This document shows, in pieces, positions 1,999 through 9,367 of a DNA stretch of 9,448 nt. Location of the stretch: positions 1-9,448 of the forward strand of contig JAAZVJ010000025.1 of the NCBI GenBank assembly GCA_018623675.1, in the 5' to 3' direction. The stretch is from Synechococcus sp. HW_metabat.54 (GTDB lineage Bacteria > Cyanobacteriota > Cyanobacteriia > PCC-6307 > Cyanobiaceae). The position numbers and the translations under genes were made by a program. Numbering within the stretch: the first letter of the stretch is position 1; each line of letters opens with the position of its first letter. The notes under the pieces are model-generated. The model did not search any database and had not been told where the DNA came from. It saw nothing but the letters and a program-made list of their open reading frames with translations.

Positions 1999-3843
1999 TC
2001 AGCGCAACAGCCAGCTCAATGAGCTGAGGAAGAGAAGAATGGCGGCGACCACTGTGAGCACGTAAGTCTGGCTACGGCCGCTAATGCTGAGCTTGAGGCT
2101 CTCTGCACTGCTGAGGGAGAAGCGCGCCATGCCATGGAGCAAGCCGTCAACCACAACACGGTCGAACGCGTAGGCGAGTCTCGAGAAACCAGCCACAACG
2201 TTGACGATGGTGATGCGATAAAAGCGCTCGGTGTAGAAATCGAAGGCCAGAAGATCTTGAAGCGATCGCACGAGGGGGTTGAGCGAGCGAGACCACGCCT
2301 TGTTCAGGGGAAGCAGGATTCCAGCGATCAGGCCGATCAAACCGCTGCCAACCACAAGCCCCGCGGCCCAGAGAGGAAAGGCCAGCAGACCATCGAGAGA
2401 TTCGAGTCGGATCAGAAAAACAGGGGTCAGGATCACGATGACGGTCATCGCCACCATGGGGAACGCCATCTGCCAGTTCACCTCAACGGCGCGGCGAGTC
2501 TTAAGGAGAGGCTGCCCCAAGAACACATGGCGGTAAACACGTGCAAGGTTGAGGGCGGTCAAGGCATTGGTCACCAAAAAGATGGTTACCAACCCGGAGG
2601 AGCGTGCACCAATCAACTCAACGGATTGGGCAAGACAAAGAAATCCACCAAGGGGGAGTAAACCAATCAGACCAGCTCCACCCACGAGGAAGGCTGTCGT
2701 TGTGGCAGGCATGCGTCCACCAAGACCACCCAGCTCGGTGATGTCCTGACAATTGGTCGCGGCGATCACACCACCAACGCTCATCGAAAGCAAGGCCTTC
2801 GAGACGGCGTGAGAAAACAAAATCAGGAGGGCCAGAACTGGCACCTGCAGGGCAATCGCAATAAACACCAGCCCGAGATAGGCAGTGGTGGAGTACGAAA
2901 GCGTTCGCTTGATATCAACTTGCGCAATGGAAACAAGAGAGCCGCCAATGGCACTGATGGCCCCAACCACTTGAAGCACCACCAGAGTGACAGGGGCGTG
3001 CTGCAGCAGAGGCATCACCTTGAGAAGCACGATGGCCCCGCAGGTCACCACCACCGAATTGCGAAGGATCGACGCAGGATTCGGGCCTTCCATGGCTTCG
3101 TCGAGCCACAGGTGCATTGGGAACTGAGCGCACTTACCCATCGGACCTGCAATGAGGCCAAGACCGATCAGGGTTGTCGCCAGGGGCGAGAGCTTGTCTT
3201 CGGCAGCCCACTCATAGAGATCATCGAAACCCATCACTCCTGCGTAAGCCGCAATGGCGACGACACCCATCAGGAGCAACACATCACCAACGCGCTTGGT
3301 GAGAAAGGCATCCCTGGCGGCGGTGATCACTAGAGGCTGGGCGTACCAGAACCCCACCAAGAGGTAGGTCGAGAGAGTGAGCATCTCCAAGAGGAAATAG
3401 CTCTGGAAGAGGGTGTCACTGAGGACAACACCTGACATCGCACCCTCAAAAAAGCCGAGCAGAGCAAAGAAGCGGGCCAGTGCCCACTCTTTGTCCATGT
3501 AGCCAAGGGAATAGATCTGAGACACGAGGCTCAGACCGGTAATCAGCTCAAGAGCTGCCACATTCGTGAGCGACAAGCTGAAGCTGATGTCGAGCTTCAG
3601 GTCAGCAACGCTGAGCCAGGGGTAATGGAGCGTTGCGGGGCCAAGCGTCATCACGTCCTGCAGGACAAAGCTTCCATGAACGAAAGCCAGCAGGGTGAGG
3701 AGGATGTTCAGGTAGGCCGCAGGGCGATGGGCATCACGGCGGAACCAGCCCGCAGCCCAGGGAAGAGCCAACACCATCCCGGTAAATCCATAGAGAGGGA
3801 TTAACCAGGACGTCTGTTCAGCGAAGGTCAGATCCGAAATCAA
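1999..3843 (-). CDS. ndhF4: NdhF4-type NDH-1 membrane subunit, CO2 uptake
   Basis: A 614-residue membrane protein of the NuoL/NdhF family in the CO2-uptake branch. Key residues of the antiporter-like core are visible: Glu153 (FLLEMLTLSTYLLVGFWY region), Lys237 in GPMGKCAQFPMHLWLDEAMEG, His244, Lys275, and DIKRTLSYSTTAYLGL. The C-terminal third carries the lateral-helix type extension ending in hydrophobic residues. It sits at the distal end of the proton-pumping arm, where in the CO2-uptake complexes it contacts the CupA/CupB subunit. The start is TTG at 3843-3841. It is the only standard start between the upstream in-frame stop (TGA ten codons back) and Met23, and it gives an N-terminus reaching WLIPLYGF as expected for the family. 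No Shine-Dalgarno sequence precedes it; instead the leader reads CACCTCCTC. It is the first gene of the ndhF4-ndhD4-chpX unit, 112 bases after csoS1E. The F4 label is inferred from its neighbours. Confidence 0.94.
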   Translation of the reverse strand: MISDLTFAEQTSWLIPLYGFTGMVLALPWAAGWFRRDAHRPAAYLNILLTLLAFVHGSFVLQDVMTLGPATLHYPWLSVADLKLDISFSLSLTNVAALELITGLSLVSQIYSLGYMDKEWALARFFALLGFFEGAMSGVVLSDTLFQSYFLLEMLTLSTYLLVGFWYAQPLVITAARDAFLTKRVGDVLLLMGVVAIAAYAGVMGFDDLYEWAAEDKLSPLATTLIGLGLIAGPMGKCAQFPMHLWLDEAMEGPNPASILRNSVVVTCGAIVLLKVMPLLQHAPVTLVVLQVVGAISAIGGSLVSIAQVDIKRTLSYSTTAYLGLVFIAIALQVPVLALLILFSHAVSKALLSMSVGGVIAATNCQDITELGGLGGRMPATTTAFLVGGAGLIGLLPLGGFLCLAQSVELIGARSSGLVTIFLVTNALTALNLARVYRHVFLGQPLLKTRRAVEVNWQMAFPMVAMTVIVILTPVFLIRLESLDGLLAFPLWAAGLVVGSGLIGLIAGILLPLNKAWSRSLNPLVRSLQDLLAFDFYTERFYRITIVNVVAGFSRLAYAFDRVVVDGLLHGMARFSLSSAESLKLSISGRSQTYVLTVVAAILLFLSSLSWLLR

Positions 3844-3955: not shown

Positions 3956-4573
3956 TCAGAGTCGGCGGGTCGCACCAGAGGCCACCAGAGCAGGCTCAAC
4001 TTCCTGATGAGGACGGGCAATGATGTGGGCCGCAACCAGGCCATCACCAACACGCTCACAGGCATCGGCACCAGCTCTTACAGCCGCGTTCACGGCGCCG
4101 GTTTCTCCGCGCACCATCACGGTGACGTAGCCGCCCCCCACAAATTCGCGGCTGATAAGGGTGACTTCAGCAGCCTTGGTCATGGCATCGGCCGCCTCAA
4201 TGGCGGGAACCACACCGCGGGTCTCGATCATGCCAAGGGCAATGCCTTGAACAGCACGATCGGGTGCTGCGCTGGAAGCGCGAAGAGAGCTGGAGCCACC
4301 ACCGCCCTTGCTGGCGCCAGAACGGGCGGTCGTCGAACGGCTGCTCCGTGACGTGGTGCTGCGCGCAGCACTGCTACGACGTGTGGTGGTCGAGGTCGCC
4401 GACTTGGCAGCGGATGAAGAGGGTGTGGCCACGGGGGTGACGTCGATGGTGGTCTGAGCAGCCGAGGCGGCCGGCTTGGCAGCTGCAGAGGAGCTGGCAG
4501 CAGTCGAAGTCGCTGGCTTCGCAGATGAAGAGGAAGCAGCGGTTGAGCGACGACGGGGAGAAGGAGTGGCCAT
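3956..4573 (-). CDS. csoS1E: CsoS1E-like BMC-H shell protein with long cationic N-terminal extension
   Basis: 205 residues, about twice the usual length of a CsoS1 shell protein (about 100). Residues 107-197 form a complete BMC-H domain: AVQGIALGMIETRG, then the pore-loop segment FVGGGYVTV (144-152), RGETGAVNAAVRAGADACE, and GDGLVAAHIIARPH. It should form hexamers that tile the carboxysome facets, with metabolites passing through the central pore. Residues 1-105 are low complexity, made mostly of Ala, Ser and Thr with many Arg and some Lys. They contain almost no acidic residues (one Asp near 44 before the BMC domain), so the segment is probably disordered and strongly basic. The gene is the last of the cso operon, 43 bases after csoS4B, with no clear ribosome-binding site before the ATG. 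The name follows the BMC-plus-extension architecture and its position at the end of alpha-cyanobacterial cso operons. It is not the main csoS1, which is expected upstream of cbbL outside this window. Confidence 0.9.
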   Translation of the reverse strand: MATPSPRRRSTAASSSSAKPATSTAASSSAAAKPAASAAQTTIDVTPVATPSSSAAKSATSTTTRRSSAARSTTSRSSRSTTARSGASKGGGGSSSLRASSAAPDRAVQGIALGMIETRGVVPAIEAADAMTKAAEVTLISREFVGGGYVTVMVRGETGAVNAAVRAGADACERVGDGLVAAHIIARPHQEVEPALVASGATRRL

Positions 4574-5202: not shown

Positions 5203-6984
5203 TCAGTGCGCCTCCTGCTTCACAGGATCGAGGGTGGACCCTACCGCTTCGGCAGGTGTGGGTAAGTCACGGTCACGAACCGTGAGCAAGGTGTGGAGCA
5301 AGCCATCACGAACAAGCTCCTGGTAGCGGGCTGAAATCGCGTCCTGCACACGATGGCAATCGGCAATGGCACGCTCACGAGCTCCGGGAACTTTGCCGGA
5401 GTAATCGAATCGAATCACAACGGGGATCGGCAGATCACGAGAAACATTGAGCCCCTTAAAGATCTTCACGCCCACATCCAGATCTGGGGCGCCTTCTTCA
5501 ACGGTGTCCAAATGAGCGAAATAAGTGAGGTTGCGTAGATGCACCTCCTTGAAGCCAATCCCAACACCGATGAATCGTTCGGCGTGCCCAGCATCGGGGT
5601 AAGGCCCCTGATGGAGAGAGCGAACGTAATCCTGCTGAGAAATGTTGTTCATCAACAGATGACTGATCAACTTCACCATCCCGGGCTCAGGAGCTTCGAC
5701 ACAATGGGTCTGCACAGCTGCTGAAACAGCCTCTGAGGCCTGCGTTGCAGTGAGAGAGGCCGTGCTCTCATAGAGCGTTTGAGCACACAACCAACGGTCG
5801 AGCTGAATCTCGCCGTCACGGCTAGGTACGTGCACCCGGATGGCATCAGTGTCGGTATCCAGGCCGATCAGCAGAAGATCAACAGACGCTCCACAGCAGA
5901 AACTGTTCTCGACCGCTTCACGGAAGTCGTGGAGACGCTGTAACCCAGCGCTGGCGGCCAAAGCATCGTTGCTTCCGTGGGCTGCACAGCCCTGATGCTC
6001 AGGATCGAGCGAGCTGAAGTGGTAGGTGACCACCTTGAGATAACGGGTCGGAGCATGGGCCTCATTGGGCACACTCTCGCGGTAGCGACGGTGCTCGGTT
6101 TTCACCCAACGGTTCACCGTGTTCTCCACGTCGAACATGGCTCCTGCATGGGAGCGACGACGCACGGAACTGAATGGAATCCGAAGTGCGTAAGCAATGG
6201 AATGGGCAAGACGCCCATCAGCGCAAGGCGTCACATCGAGAAGATGAAAGCCACACTCGAGCAGAAACGCATTGAACTGCTCAGCGCGCTGACTGCCCGA
6301 AGCGCTGGCGAGGGGGTCATCTAAGAAAAAGCGTTCGCTGAACGACTGATGCGACTGGAAAACACACCAGGCGAAAAGAGCGCGCATATCGAGCGGACGC
6401 ACCCAAGCTTTTTCAAGGATGTGATCCGGAAGATCAAAGCCAAGCTCGGCCCTCGAAAGGCGTTGGGCTTGAGTAATGAAGTCAGCTTCGTGCTGAAAGG
6501 CAGACACCTTCTGCAGCACAGGAACAATGCGATCAAAGCGCCCCTTGATCTCCTGCTCATAAGCCTGGAGACGTTTGTTCTCAGCAAGATCGGTGAGTGG
6601 GTGGGCACCAAGCACACCACGCTGTGAAGCGGTGGCAGTGCGGAAACGAGCCGATGGAGAACAGGAAGCAGGCTGTTGATTGCCTGATTTTTCACGGCGC
6701 ACCCAGGTGGGGCGCTGAACGACAGGGCGTCGATTGTCTTGTCTGGAACGAACACGACCCCCACTCACAGCACTGTCTTTGAGGACAGCGGCTTTGCCTG
6801 ATGTCGTGAGAGCTTTGCGCCGCTCTAGAGCGGCGCTGCGGGTTGTGGAGACTGGATCAGAATCCGCGGTGTTCTGGCTCGGGAGCGAGTCAGTTGCGGA
6901 AACCTGAAAGGATTGCAACTGACGCCGGGTTGGAGCAGTGGGAGCCTGTAGGCGCCCACGCCGGGAAGGTTGTGGGCGCACCAT
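5203..6984 (-). CDS. csoS3: CsoSCA (CsoS3) carboxysomal carbonic anhydrase
   Basis: Epsilon/beta-like carbonic anhydrase of the alpha-carboxysome, converting bicarbonate to CO2 at the inner shell. Using the ATG at 6984 it has 593 residues, longer than the roughly 514 of the Halothiobacillus enzyme. The active site is intact: Cys254-x-Asp256-x-Arg258 (PCADGRLAH), His322 (TYHFSS) and Cys333 (HQGCAAHG). Their spacing matches the known zinc ligands Cys173, His242 and Cys253 and the Asp175-Arg177 pair. The degenerate second half needed to complete the fold follows. Residues 1 to about 125 are basic, Ser/Gln-rich and probably disordered. Within them residues 49-64 nearly copy the first CsoS2 N-repeat, a likely Rubisco-binding motif. 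A GTG at 7005 would add seven residues and overlap csoS2 by 14 bases. I prefer the ATG, which lies seven bases after the csoS2 stop. Neither start has a good ribosome-binding site at ideal spacing. Confidence 0.95.
   Translation of the reverse strand: MVRPQPSRRGRLQAPTAPTRRQLQSFQVSATDSLPSQNTADSDPVSTTRSAALERRKALTTSGKAAVLKDSAVSGGRVRSRQDNRRPVVQRPTWVRREKSGNQQPASCSPSARFRTATASQRGVLGAHPLTDLAENKRLQAYEQEIKGRFDRIVPVLQKVSAFQHEADFITQAQRLSRAELGFDLPDHILEKAWVRPLDMRALFAWCVFQSHQSFSERFFLDDPLASASGSQRAEQFNAFLLECGFHLLDVTPCADGRLAHSIAYALRIPFSSVRRRSHAGAMFDVENTVNRWVKTEHRRYRESVPNEAHAPTRYLKVVTYHFSSLDPEHQGCAAHGSNDALAASAGLQRLHDFREAVENSFCCGASVDLLLIGLDTDTDAIRVHVPSRDGEIQLDRWLCAQTLYESTASLTATQASEAVSAAVQTHCVEAPEPGMVKLISHLLMNNISQQDYVRSLHQGPYPDAGHAERFIGVGIGFKEVHLRNLTYFAHLDTVEEGAPDLDVGVKIFKGLNVSRDLPIPVVIRFDYSGKVPGARERAIADCHRVQDAISARYQELVRDGLLHTLLTVRDRDLPTPAEAVGSTLDPVKQEAH
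5211..5216 (-). promoter_or_regulatory. Consensus Shine-Dalgarno AGGAGG for csoS4A
   Basis: AGGAGG on the minus strand, 10 bases before the csoS4A ATG and within the last codons of csoSCA (Gln-Glu-Ala). Most other genes here lack a clear site, so this one suggests csoS4A translation starts independently and strongly, rather than only by coupling to csoSCA. Confidence 0.7.
6793..6840 (-). other. CsoS2 N-repeat-like motif within the CsoSCA N-terminus
   Basis: Sixteen codons encode RSAALERRKALTTSGK. CsoS2 repeat N1 in the same operon reads RELALERRKALTTAGK, identical at 13 of 16 positions. Ten of those 13 shared residues use different codons. In CsoS2 this helix-forming, arginine-rich motif is the known Rubisco-binding element, so this copy probably lets the carbonic anhydrase bind Rubisco. 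Confidence 0.8.
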
Positions 6985-6991
6985 CCCTCGA

Positions 6992-9367
6992 TCAGCCCCG
7001 TGCACCGCCAGAGACGGTGATCAGAGAACCCTTATCAGTGTTGCCACTGGAACCGGTCACACGGCTCACAGGCCACTCGGTCTCTTCATTGCGCTTGCGC
7101 TCGAAAGGAGACATGGCACTCATGGGGCCGGGACGGCTGGGGTTACGGCGACGGGCCGAAGCGCCCTCAGTACCAGTGACATGCTCTCCACGATCCCAGT
7201 CGTCGCCGGTGATCTTGGTGGAGGAACCTTCGCCTGTCACCCGGGAAGCGGGCTTCGCAGGGGGCTCACTGACCACAGCCACGGTGGGCTGGAACTGACG
7301 CTGCTGCTGACGGTTTTGGAATTCGCGGTTATCGAAGCGGAATTGCTCGGTACCGGTCACCTTGCCGCCAGCCATGTCAAAAGGGCCGGTGATGCGATTG
7401 CCCTGCTCATAGGACGTACCCGTGACTCCGGAGTTGGCCTCACGTTGTTGCTGAGCAGCACGGGCGGGAGACACAACGCTGAAGCGGGTCCAGGCCGCAC
7501 CTTGAGGAGCTTCGCCGTGGGTGTCGGTGCCAGCTGGAGCATCAGCTCCACAAGCTGCAGCCAACTGATCGGCGCCCACATAAGGGGTACCGGTGACGGC
7601 TTCGCAAGCTCCGCGCTCATCGCCGGTCATCACACCACCGATTCCGGGCTGAAGACCGGTCATGGCAGCGGACGGGGTGCCGAGACGCACTGGAGTGCGC
7701 TCGCGGATGGCTTGAACAGCAGGGGTTCCGCAGTGCTGGCCTGCCTGCTCGAGGCCTGCATAGGGGGTACCGGTGACGGCCTGGCAGCTACCGGGCTCAT
7801 CACCAGTGACGCGCTCAGAGCGACCTGTGCGGGTACCGCTCACGACCTGGTTGCGGTTGGTGATGCTGAAACCCACCTTCGCGGCCTCCGGCTCGGGCTT
7901 AGCGCCACAAAAGGAGTTGACCTGCTCAGCACTGACGTACTGATCACCTGTCACCCGATGGCAGGAACCAAACTCATCTCCGGTGACACTGGCGGAACGA
8001 CCCACCATGGTGCCGGTCACACCGGAGCCTGAAAGGGTTGCCGAAACGCCCACCTTGGCTGCAGGACGGCCTTCGGGAAGGGGGTCAGAACCGAGGTACT
8101 GATCACCCGTGAGGCTGCGGCCTGCACCGGCTTCGTCGCCGGTGACGCTGGCGGAACGACCCACCATCACACCGCTAACTGGACGGCCCTCGAGGGTGAG
8201 GCTGTGGCCGACTTTGCGAGGCGAAGGATTGGAGCCACCGCAGTAAGCCGCAGACTGATTTGCTGAGATGTATTCGGTACCCGTTACGGCCTTGCAGGTG
8301 CCGGGCTCATCGCCCGTGACCTTTTCGGAACGGCCGACTTCGTTGCCGGTGACGCGGTTGCCGTGGCTGGTGGCGGTGACGCGCACCTTGGCCGGAGTGG
8401 TGGCAGCGGGAGCGGTCTGACAGAAGGTCTGGAAGACCTCAGCGCCCAGGTACTCAGTACCCGTGATCGAACGGCAGGTGCTGGCTTCGTTGCCGGTGGT
8501 TTTCACCGAGCGGTTGGCCTGGGTGCCGGTCACGGTCTGGCCACCCGTGGTGGTGCTTTCTCCCACCTTCCAGTGGGCATCAGCAGCGGCGGCTTGCTTG
8601 GCGCCATGACGGTTAGGACCAGTGGGGCGGGTCACACCAGCGCTTTGTTTGTTGCGGGCACCAGCTTTGGTGCGCAATTCGCGCACCTGTTGCGCAAGCT
8701 CACGGCTGGTGAGGTCGGGGTTGGCCTGGCGCGCCACGGCTGCAGCGCTAGTGGGTTGCTTGCCAGCGGTTTTGCCGTGCTTCGCCATGGCTTCACGACG
8801 GGCAAGAACCAGTGCGCGACTGGGGTTCTCAATCGCACGACGCTTAGGGGAGGCGCTGCGACGCTCTGCAGCTGCGCGGCGGTCACCGGAGCGATTACTC
8901 AGCTCAACAGTGACCGCAGGGCGGGCGGATTTCTCAGCAGCTCGGGCGCCACCACAGCCACACTCTTTCTTGGCTGGCTCAGCAGCAACGGCTGGTGGCT
9001 TGGTCGTGCGAGCAACATCAGAGCGGTTGCGATCACGGCTGGTATCGGCAGTTTTGCCACGGCGTGAAAGGGCTTCACGACGGGCCAACACCAGTTCGCG
9101 ACTGGGTTGACGCACAGCCTTCACCTGGGAGGAATGGGAAGCTGAACGCGGAGCACTGGGGCTCAGACCGGAGGTACGGGGCGGGGCGGCAGGTGCAGCA
9201 GCGACTGGGGCAGCAGCTTCAGCAGCATTAGTACGGGTCGGACGTGCATCGGAAGCGCTACGCACACGATTGGCCTTGTCACCGGCAGCAGCCGATGCCT
9301 TTTTACCGGCCGTAGTCAACGCCTTACGGCGCTCAAGTGCGAGTTCGCGACTGGAGAGTCTTGCCAT
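6992..9367 (-). CDS. csoS2: CsoS2, disordered scaffold of the alpha-carboxysome
   Basis: 791 residues, within the usual cyanobacterial size range. It has the classic three-part layout. The N region (to about 240) carries Rubisco-binding repeats at 6-22, 89-105 and 183-199 (SRxLxLxRRxAxxxxGK) and a degenerate fourth at 221-237 lacking the RR. The M region (266-606) has six repeats of about 50 residues with VTGTxxGRSxxVTGDE and VTGTxY motifs, which in the known family contact shell proteins. Most M-repeats carry two Cys (298/316, 358/376, 469/487, 528/546, 588/606); the third has none. The C region (607-791) has further VTG motifs and the conserved end SPFERKRNEETEWPVSRVTG, which anchors to the shell. 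It nucleates carboxysome assembly by linking Rubisco to the shell. The ATG is at 9367-9365, with only a weak GGGCGG close to it. A CGCGG cysteine motif sits at 136-140. Whether a short isoform arises by frameshifting, as in Halothiobacillus, cannot be told here. Confidence 0.97.
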   Translation of the reverse strand: MARLSSRELALERRKALTTAGKKASAAAGDKANRVRSASDARPTRTNAAEAAAPVAAAPAAPPRTSGLSPSAPRSASHSSQVKAVRQPSRELVLARREALSRRGKTADTSRDRNRSDVARTTKPPAVAAEPAKKECGCGGARAAEKSARPAVTVELSNRSGDRRAAAERRSASPKRRAIENPSRALVLARREAMAKHGKTAGKQPTSAAAVARQANPDLTSRELAQQVRELRTKAGARNKQSAGVTRPTGPNRHGAKQAAAADAHWKVGESTTTGGQTVTGTQANRSVKTTGNEASTCRSITGTEYLGAEVFQTFCQTAPAATTPAKVRVTATSHGNRVTGNEVGRSEKVTGDEPGTCKAVTGTEYISANQSAAYCGGSNPSPRKVGHSLTLEGRPVSGVMVGRSASVTGDEAGAGRSLTGDQYLGSDPLPEGRPAAKVGVSATLSGSGVTGTMVGRSASVTGDEFGSCHRVTGDQYVSAEQVNSFCGAKPEPEAAKVGFSITNRNQVVSGTRTGRSERVTGDEPGSCQAVTGTPYAGLEQAGQHCGTPAVQAIRERTPVRLGTPSAAMTGLQPGIGGVMTGDERGACEAVTGTPYVGADQLAAACGADAPAGTDTHGEAPQGAAWTRFSVVSPARAAQQQREANSGVTGTSYEQGNRITGPFDMAGGKVTGTEQFRFDNREFQNRQQQRQFQPTVAVVSEPPAKPASRVTGEGSSTKITGDDWDRGEHVTGTEGASARRRNPSRPGPMSAMSPFERKRNEETEWPVSRVTGSSGNTDKGSLITVSGGARG
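7550..8572 (-). repeat. CsoS2 M-region: six shell-interacting repeats
   Basis: Units of about 50 codons: M1 8572-8420, M2 8389-8240, M3 8215-8078, M4 8056-7907, M5 7879-7730 and M6 7687-7550. Each has a VTG or VSG triplet set around GRS and TGDE, and most end in Cys. M6 is shortened at its front. M3 and M4 share a perfect 20-base identity (8148-8167 and 7989-8008), consistent with recent duplication or gene conversion. Confidence 0.85.
8657..9352 (-). repeat. CsoS2 N-region: four Rubisco-binding repeats
   Basis: Repeat units lie at 9352-9302 (N1), 9103-9053 (N2), 8821-8771 (N3) and 8707-8657 (N4). N1 to N3 share SR-x-L-x-L-x-RR-(K/E)-A and end in GK. N4 (SRELAQQVRELRTKAGA) keeps the SREL start but loses the paired arginines, so it may bind weakly or not at all. 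Linkers are Ala/Ser/Arg-rich and low complexity. Confidence 0.85.

Follow-up and report, generated by a model that had tools for sequence, protein, structure and literature searches.

How carbonic anhydrase enters alpha-carboxysomes has been solved structurally in Halothiobacillus, where the enzyme CsoSCA and the scaffold CsoS2 use different motifs to bind one and the same Rubisco groove, and where the motif of the enzyme is not a conserved one (Blikstad et al. 2023, PMC10614612; this and the other papers given by PMC number are cited from excerpts of their text). The N-repeats of CsoS2 carry the Rubisco-binding pattern RxxxxxRRxxxxxxGK. Arg10 of the CsoS2 peptide is stacked between CbbL Tyr72 and CbbS Tyr96, and Arg23 of Halothiobacillus CsoSCA hydrogen-bonds the hydroxyl of CbbL Tyr72 (PMC10614612). 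Judging from the CsoS2 N peptide that is fused to Rubisco in 6UEW (SSGRDLARARREALSQQGKAAV), Arg10 is probably one of the paired arginines of the pattern. CsoSCA hexamers are reported for both Cyanobium and Halothiobacillus (PMC11086599, PMC12646314). The excerpts of Blikstad et al. 2023 (PMC10614612) also state that 'a handful' of CsoSCA from Prochlorococcus have the CsoS2 motif, 'suggesting an evolutionary relationship'. Thus, the core idea is already in print. In the literature listings and excerpts covered there was no further mention of the motif in CsoSCA. The full length of the shared module, how widely it occurs in marine Synechococcus, its losses, the agreement with a single gain and the lack of co-evolution with the scaffold were not found in the published text covered, and appear to be new.

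The N1-like module of the CsoSCA tail

The window, that is, the whole stretch of 9,448 nucleotides that was analysed, carries csoS2 and csoSCA side by side (Table 1), with the ATG of csoSCA just behind the csoS2 stop. The csoSCA product matches Pfam CsoSCA_N (E 1.3e-41), CsoSCA_cat (5.7e-117) and CsoSCA_C (4.3e-55). A disordered tail of about 127 residues stands ahead of the folded domains, and PDB matches start only at the folded domain.

Table 1. Features of the csoS2-csoSCA region, in window positions.
Feature	Position	Strand	Remarks
csoS2 (carboxysome scaffold)	6992..9367	(-)	immediately upstream of csoSCA; Pfam CsoS2_M E 1.5e-219
CsoS2 repeat N1, RELALERRKALTTAGK	9302..9349	(-)	CsoS2 residues 7-22; likely donor type
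RVRSASD element behind N1	9248..9268	(-)	from sequence and census
CsoS2 repeat N2, RELVLARREALSRRGK	9053..9100	(-)	without RVR element after it
CsoS2 repeat N3, RALVLARREAMAKHGK	8771..8818	(-)	without RVR element after it
csoSCA (carboxysomal beta-carbonic anhydrase)	5203..6984	(-)	read from ATG 6984, on the basis of Pfam domains and start context
PTAPTRRQLQ island	6913..6942	(-)	residues 15-24; cyanobacterial PTAPx[R/K]R motif; a further docking candidate
Whole N1-like module (motif, spacer and RVR element)	6727..6840	(-)	residues 49-86; putative capture from csoS2
N1-like motif, RSAALERRKALTTSGK	6793..6840	(-)	residues 49-64 if the start is ATG 6984
GRVRSRQD element of CsoSCA	6736..6759	(-)	counterpart of NRVRSASD behind CsoS2 N1
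RPTWVRR island (family form QPGWVRR)	6694..6714	(-)	residues 91-97; conserved, pN/pS 0.24

The N1-like motif of the tail is an exact RxxxxxRRxxxxxxGK, as in the CsoS2 N-repeats. A sequence-only reading of this DNA had counted 13/16 identities between residues 49-64 and CsoS2 N1, with different codons at ten of the 13 shared residues, and both counts were reproduced. Its further observation that this likeness exceeds that between N1 and N2 is also borne out, in the window (13/16 vs 10/16, the latter counted by eye) and across 55 motif-bearing genomes, where the mean is 11.87/16 for CsoSCA with N1 and 9.47/16 for N1 with N2, and the former is the higher in 52/55. The excess is most simply a matter of descent, N1 being the probable donor. 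In 20,000 shuffles of the tail, the top identity of any 16-mer to N1 was 9/16, reached once.

The R, RR, AL and GKAAV of the 6UEW peptide are common to the CsoSCA tail, which thus resembles an N-repeat in its exact pattern, in its GKAAV ending and in the RVR element that follows, as after N1. Outside the defining residues, AL, TT and the AA after GK are 93-100% conserved among the CsoSCA motifs. Unlike N1, the CsoSCA motif does not keep the acidic residue at position 2, and it is present as one copy per chain on the tail of an enzyme reported as hexameric in relatives, whereas the scaffold has three strict copies. For a short helix of the N-repeat kind there is a weak hint in CsoSCA: the full-length protein modelled with AlphaFold2 (mean pLDDT 62.6; taken solely as a helix hint) has a low-confidence helix at residues 48-62, with ten-residue block pLDDT means of 37-49 over the motif.

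The likeness extends beyond the 16-mer. The sequence-only reading understated the match, because a downstream RVR[ST]xxD element is also common to both proteins (post-GK sequence AAVLKDSAVSGGRVRSRQDNRR in CsoSCA vs KASAAAGDKANRVRSASDAR in N1). In a census with the pattern R[VIT][RH][STNG]xx[DE], the element was found 12 residues after GK in 53/56 distinct motif-bearing CsoSCA, where shuffled segments have it in a mean of 0.065 of 56, and 10-13 residues after GK in 122/127 N1 repeats; it was found behind N2 in 0/127 and behind N3 in 0/127. The 127 CsoS2 come from a set of 157 distinct loci, of which 30 were dropped before counting; in those kept, CsoS2 has three strict repeats, neither more nor fewer, and the first of them lies near the start. 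When just the segments behind GK were compared as HHalign profiles, P was 1.6e-4 for N1 (probability 50%), 0.018 for N2, 0.18 for N3 and 0.48 for a linker control. As the element is common to CsoSCA and N1 and not to N2 or N3, the shared module is about 37 residues long. A 42-position profile of the module matches window positions 6727-6849 with E 8.4e-20, the window's own rows being included in the profile. Halothiobacillus CsoS2 has a GRVR element behind its second repeat; thus, the element is old and belongs to the N-repeats.

A profile search of 31 genomes of the window's genus, 28 of them with strong matches, found all matches better than E 1e-3 in CsoS2- or CsoSCA-sized frames, and no third protein with the motif at better than E 0.0017. 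In a single case, locus L194 (genome G141), Val stands ahead of GK in both the CsoSCA motif and N1.

Distribution, selection and origin

CsoSCA_N was found in 364/399 genomes of the order, and loci were drawn from the places listed: 100 were fetched, chosen across genera and then from the two motif-bearing groups and other long forms. In this set together with the window, the motif is present in 23/25 loci of the window's genus (g1), in 24/25 of a second group (g9) and in 0/51 of other genera. Since the large groups g2 and g8 were not part of it, 30 genomes were added (2 g1, 18 g2, 10 g8), and the motif is found in both g1 genomes, in 0/18 g2 and in 0/10 g8. The totals are 25/27 for g1 and 24/25 for g9, both genus groups of marine Synechococcus, and 0/79 loci examined in other genera. 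The motif is thus conserved in close relatives (49/52 loci), a check that had been proposed with the sequence-only reading.

Among the best 80 named loci, partly from the same genomes as the fetched loci, the motif is found in 19/21 titled Synechococcus and in 1/3 with a general cyanobacterial title, but in 0/53 titled Prochlorococcus or Prochlorococcaceae and 0/3 titled Cyanobium. This differs from the handful in Prochlorococcus that the excerpts of PMC10614612 describe. Among the best 120 of 2724 protein matches, 95/96 of at least 540 residues have the motif, compared with 0/24 of the shorter ones; named members include Synechococcus sp. RS9916, MEDNS5, CS-197 and CC9616. The median length of the CsoSCA tail goes from about 48 to 120 residues.

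Within the 56 distinct sequences, pN/pS was computed from raw proportions with near-saturated synonymous sites, and so ranks regions without measuring strength. The motif has a value of 0.24, which becomes 0.34 when the five columns that the pattern fixes are left out; QPGWVRR also has 0.24, the RVR element 0.39 and the PTAP island 0.14. The linkers and spacer have 0.86, 0.67 and 0.59, the highest value being that of the linker ahead of the motif, and the references are 0.11 for a 135-codon catalytic stretch and 0.05 for CsoS2 N1. The CsoSCA motif is thus under purifying selection, as had been proposed from its codons, although it is less constrained than N1.

That the motif is not a recent DNA copy also holds, as synonymous differences between genomes are about 0.7 per site and nucleotide identity to the N1 of the same genome is not raised. 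This identity is 0.632 to the genome's own N1 and 0.638 to the N1 of other genomes, and recent gene conversion from csoS2 was rejected on this ground. The suggested co-evolution of N1 with the enzyme is not supported by a covariation check by permutation: in 55 genomes the residue identity of the CsoSCA motif is 0.742 to the own N1 vs 0.748 to the N1 of other genomes, and 1939/2000 permutations reach or exceed the observed own-N1 identity. N1 itself is nearly frozen.

The origin of the motif was read from a tree of 68 selected rows that joins the CsoSCA core, the CsoS2 sequence from its middle region onwards and CbbL, rather than from the tree of CsoSCA only; it is an operon tree and not one of species. 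In the operon tree, all 36 rows of marine Synechococcus fall into a single clade (100/100), and three changes of the motif are needed, in keeping with one gain and two losses. Locus L067 (G192) is the sister of marine Synechococcus in this tree, on a long branch, and its CsoSCA is without the N1-like motif; its CsoS2 has four strict N-repeats. In the CsoSCA-only tree (157 rows), Prochlorococcus is placed among Synechococcus and the motif needs four changes; with 67 rows, L067 being left out, a single clade of Synechococcus is not rejected, however (p-AU 0.434). Nearly every alpha-cyanobacterial CsoS2 read has N1, suggesting that the direction was from CsoS2 to CsoSCA.

The three clade loci lacking the motif are of two kinds. 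A 72-base in-frame deletion in L035 takes the 16-mer and its upstream flank and leaves RVR and QPGWVRR, and in L044 and L175 everything between PTAPTRRQLQ and QPAW[IV]RR is missing. A further long CsoSCA without the motif, P0098, has a short deletion as judged by eye against relatives. With losses in three of 52 clade loci and in P0098, the motif appears to be helpful but not indispensable. The apparent deletion in P0098 lies between KAA repeats (relatives RKAALDRRRALTTAGKAAQL, P0098 RKAAQL).

Predicted docking and alternative readings

The reading judged probable is that a module of about 37 residues was captured once in the ancestor of marine Synechococcus, and it is predicted to dock CsoSCA at the Rubisco groove used by the CsoS2 N-repeats. 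Binding of the CsoSCA motif to Rubisco is likely, as a prediction from sequence, and a docking code shared by enzyme and scaffold is plausible. In each tail the motif would form a short helix lying on the groove of CbbL and CbbS, where one of the paired arginines (the choice between the two being presumptive) would stack between CbbL position 72 and CbbS Tyr96. With six such tails a CsoSCA hexamer would gain avidity, and CsoSCA would be carried into the Rubisco-CsoS2 condensate. Because the tail keeps the older PTAPx[R/K]R island, the new motif would add a foothold and not replace the only one.

The site itself was compared in alpha-cyanobacterial relatives, as both cbbL and cbbS of the window's own genome are off the contig. 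CbbS Tyr96 is conserved in 133/133 sequences and CbbL Asp99 in 137/137. CbbL position 72, in Halothiobacillus numbering anchored on S345-F346-I347 in the alignment, is Phe in 137/137 and Tyr in Halothiobacillus, and in this residue the site departs from the one in the solved structure. Since Phe72 can stack on arginine and offers no hydroxyl, the CsoS2-like mode may fit cyanobacteria better than the Halothiobacillus enzyme's mode. The excerpts of PMC10614612 call Tyr72 conserved in alpha-carboxysome Rubisco, whereas Phe72 is found in all 137 sequences here.

The Halothiobacillus peptide cited in the sequence-only reading is indeed reported to bind Rubisco, but with a different motif, PRLDLIEQA, and a different pose (PMC10614612), so that its binding does not itself show that the N1-like motif binds. 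The marine tail resembles that of Halothiobacillus neapolitanus CsoSCA (PDB 7SMK) in being a disordered tail of the same enzyme family, with the same Rubisco region as its predicted target. It differs in motif and pose, and the Tyr72 hydroxyl that serves as partner there is absent in alpha-cyanobacteria, which have Phe72. No PRLDLIEQA-like element is present in the window's CsoSCA tail.

An unlikely explanation is convergence, in which a short Rubisco motif arose anew in a drifting tail and came to resemble N1 by fitting the same groove. The bare pattern RxxxxxRRxxxxxxGK does occur in 21/20,000 shuffled tails, the CsoSCA of Halothiobacillus came to bind this site by a different motif (PMC10614612), and there is no surplus of DNA likeness between motif and N1 within a genome. 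However, the RVR[ST]xxD element lies outside the 16-mer, at a near-equal distance in both proteins, and among the repeats it follows only N1. The CsoSCA consensus is also closer to the N1 of Synechococcus-type genomes than to that of others (12.7/16 vs 10.3/16). One capture of the module from the neighbouring csoS2 is considered likely on these comparisons.

If capture is accepted, the module may still serve a partner other than Rubisco, be it a shell protein, CsoS2 or the tail of another CsoSCA chain. All five defining residues of the CsoS2 Rubisco motif are intact, with AL, TT and the AA after GK conserved as described above, and CsoSCA-CsoS2 binding went undetected in a published Halothiobacillus screen (excerpts of PMC10614612), which makes another partner quite unlikely, even though CsoSCA is reported to interact with shell hexamers in Halothiobacillus (PMC12646314), the RVR and QPGWVRR islands are without a known role and some strains dispense with the motif. 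Alternatively, the captured segment could now be a neutral relic, with binding resting on PTAPx[R/K]R. The losses in some strains are in keeping with this, as is the hold of the older island, which is found as PxAPx[RK] in 59/59 distinct CsoSCA of Synechococcus type and in 93/98 of the others, and is the more constrained of the two. A relic is nevertheless very unlikely, given that the motif has a pN/pS of 0.24 against 0.86 in the preceding linker, with synonymous sites near saturation, and so is not drifting neutrally.

Should capture and docking at the N-repeat groove be correct, they would be a case of a docking code passing from one protein of an organelle to another, and the module would be a ready tag for loading enzymes beside cyanobacterial form IA Rubisco. 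In pyrenoids, several proteins of one compartment carry one Rubisco-docking code, although the case is eukaryotic and its motif and site are unrelated; Meyer et al. reportedly described this common motif in 2020. A scaffold-derived motif that is widespread in marine Synechococcus and deleted in a few strains also provides natural pairs with and without it in cyanobacteria. A bolder idea, possible but doubtful, is that marine Synechococcus CsoSCA is a second scaffold, cross-linking Rubisco and helping to build the carboxysome core rather than just riding in it. Each tail would then have at least two docking motifs, the ancestral PTAPx[R/K]R and the captured N1 module, so that a hexamer would offer twelve or more footholds, and the binding module would have been taken from the neighbouring scaffold gene.

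Other islands and neighbouring genes

The PTAPx[R/K]R motif of cyanobacterial CsoSCA (PMC10614612) is present in the window's tail as PTAPTRR, in an island separate from and older than the N1-like motif, with 24 residues between PTAPTRRQLQ and the motif. QPGWVRR stands behind the module and is kept in all three loci lacking the N1-like motif. When profiles of the two islands were searched against eight genomes, only CsoSCA-sized frames at the place of csoSCA scored better than E 0.01. In G095 the QPGWVRR profile gave E 0.013; in G141 it had no match within E 1, and that of the PTAP island reached 0.8. In L194, the locus of G141, the PTAP island has changed to QAPSRRQLRQ and is present in two copies of NGRPQAPSRRQLRQNQDRS, the second of which stands where QPGWVRR is expected.

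The long tails of g8 are without the CsoS2 motif and have conserved islands of another kind, KVLRQRELA and RRVRPVA, in 10/10 loci (L232, L233, L235, L237, L239, L243, L250, L251, L225 and L228; L251 reads KVLHQRELA). These islands are a candidate independent docking element. In four genomes tested, the likeness of the island around KVLRQRELA to the CsoS2 of the same genome is not above that of shuffles.

Elsewhere in the window, a BMC-domain protein with a long Ser/Ala/Thr-rich N-terminal extension (3956-4573, (-)) fits the description of CsoS1E in the excerpts of PMC4499774. Directly behind the carboxysome genes are two NDH-1-type proton-antiporter subunits by Pfam (487-1992 and 1999-3843, (-)). 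These are presumably the NdhD4/NdhF4 pair of a CO2-uptake complex.
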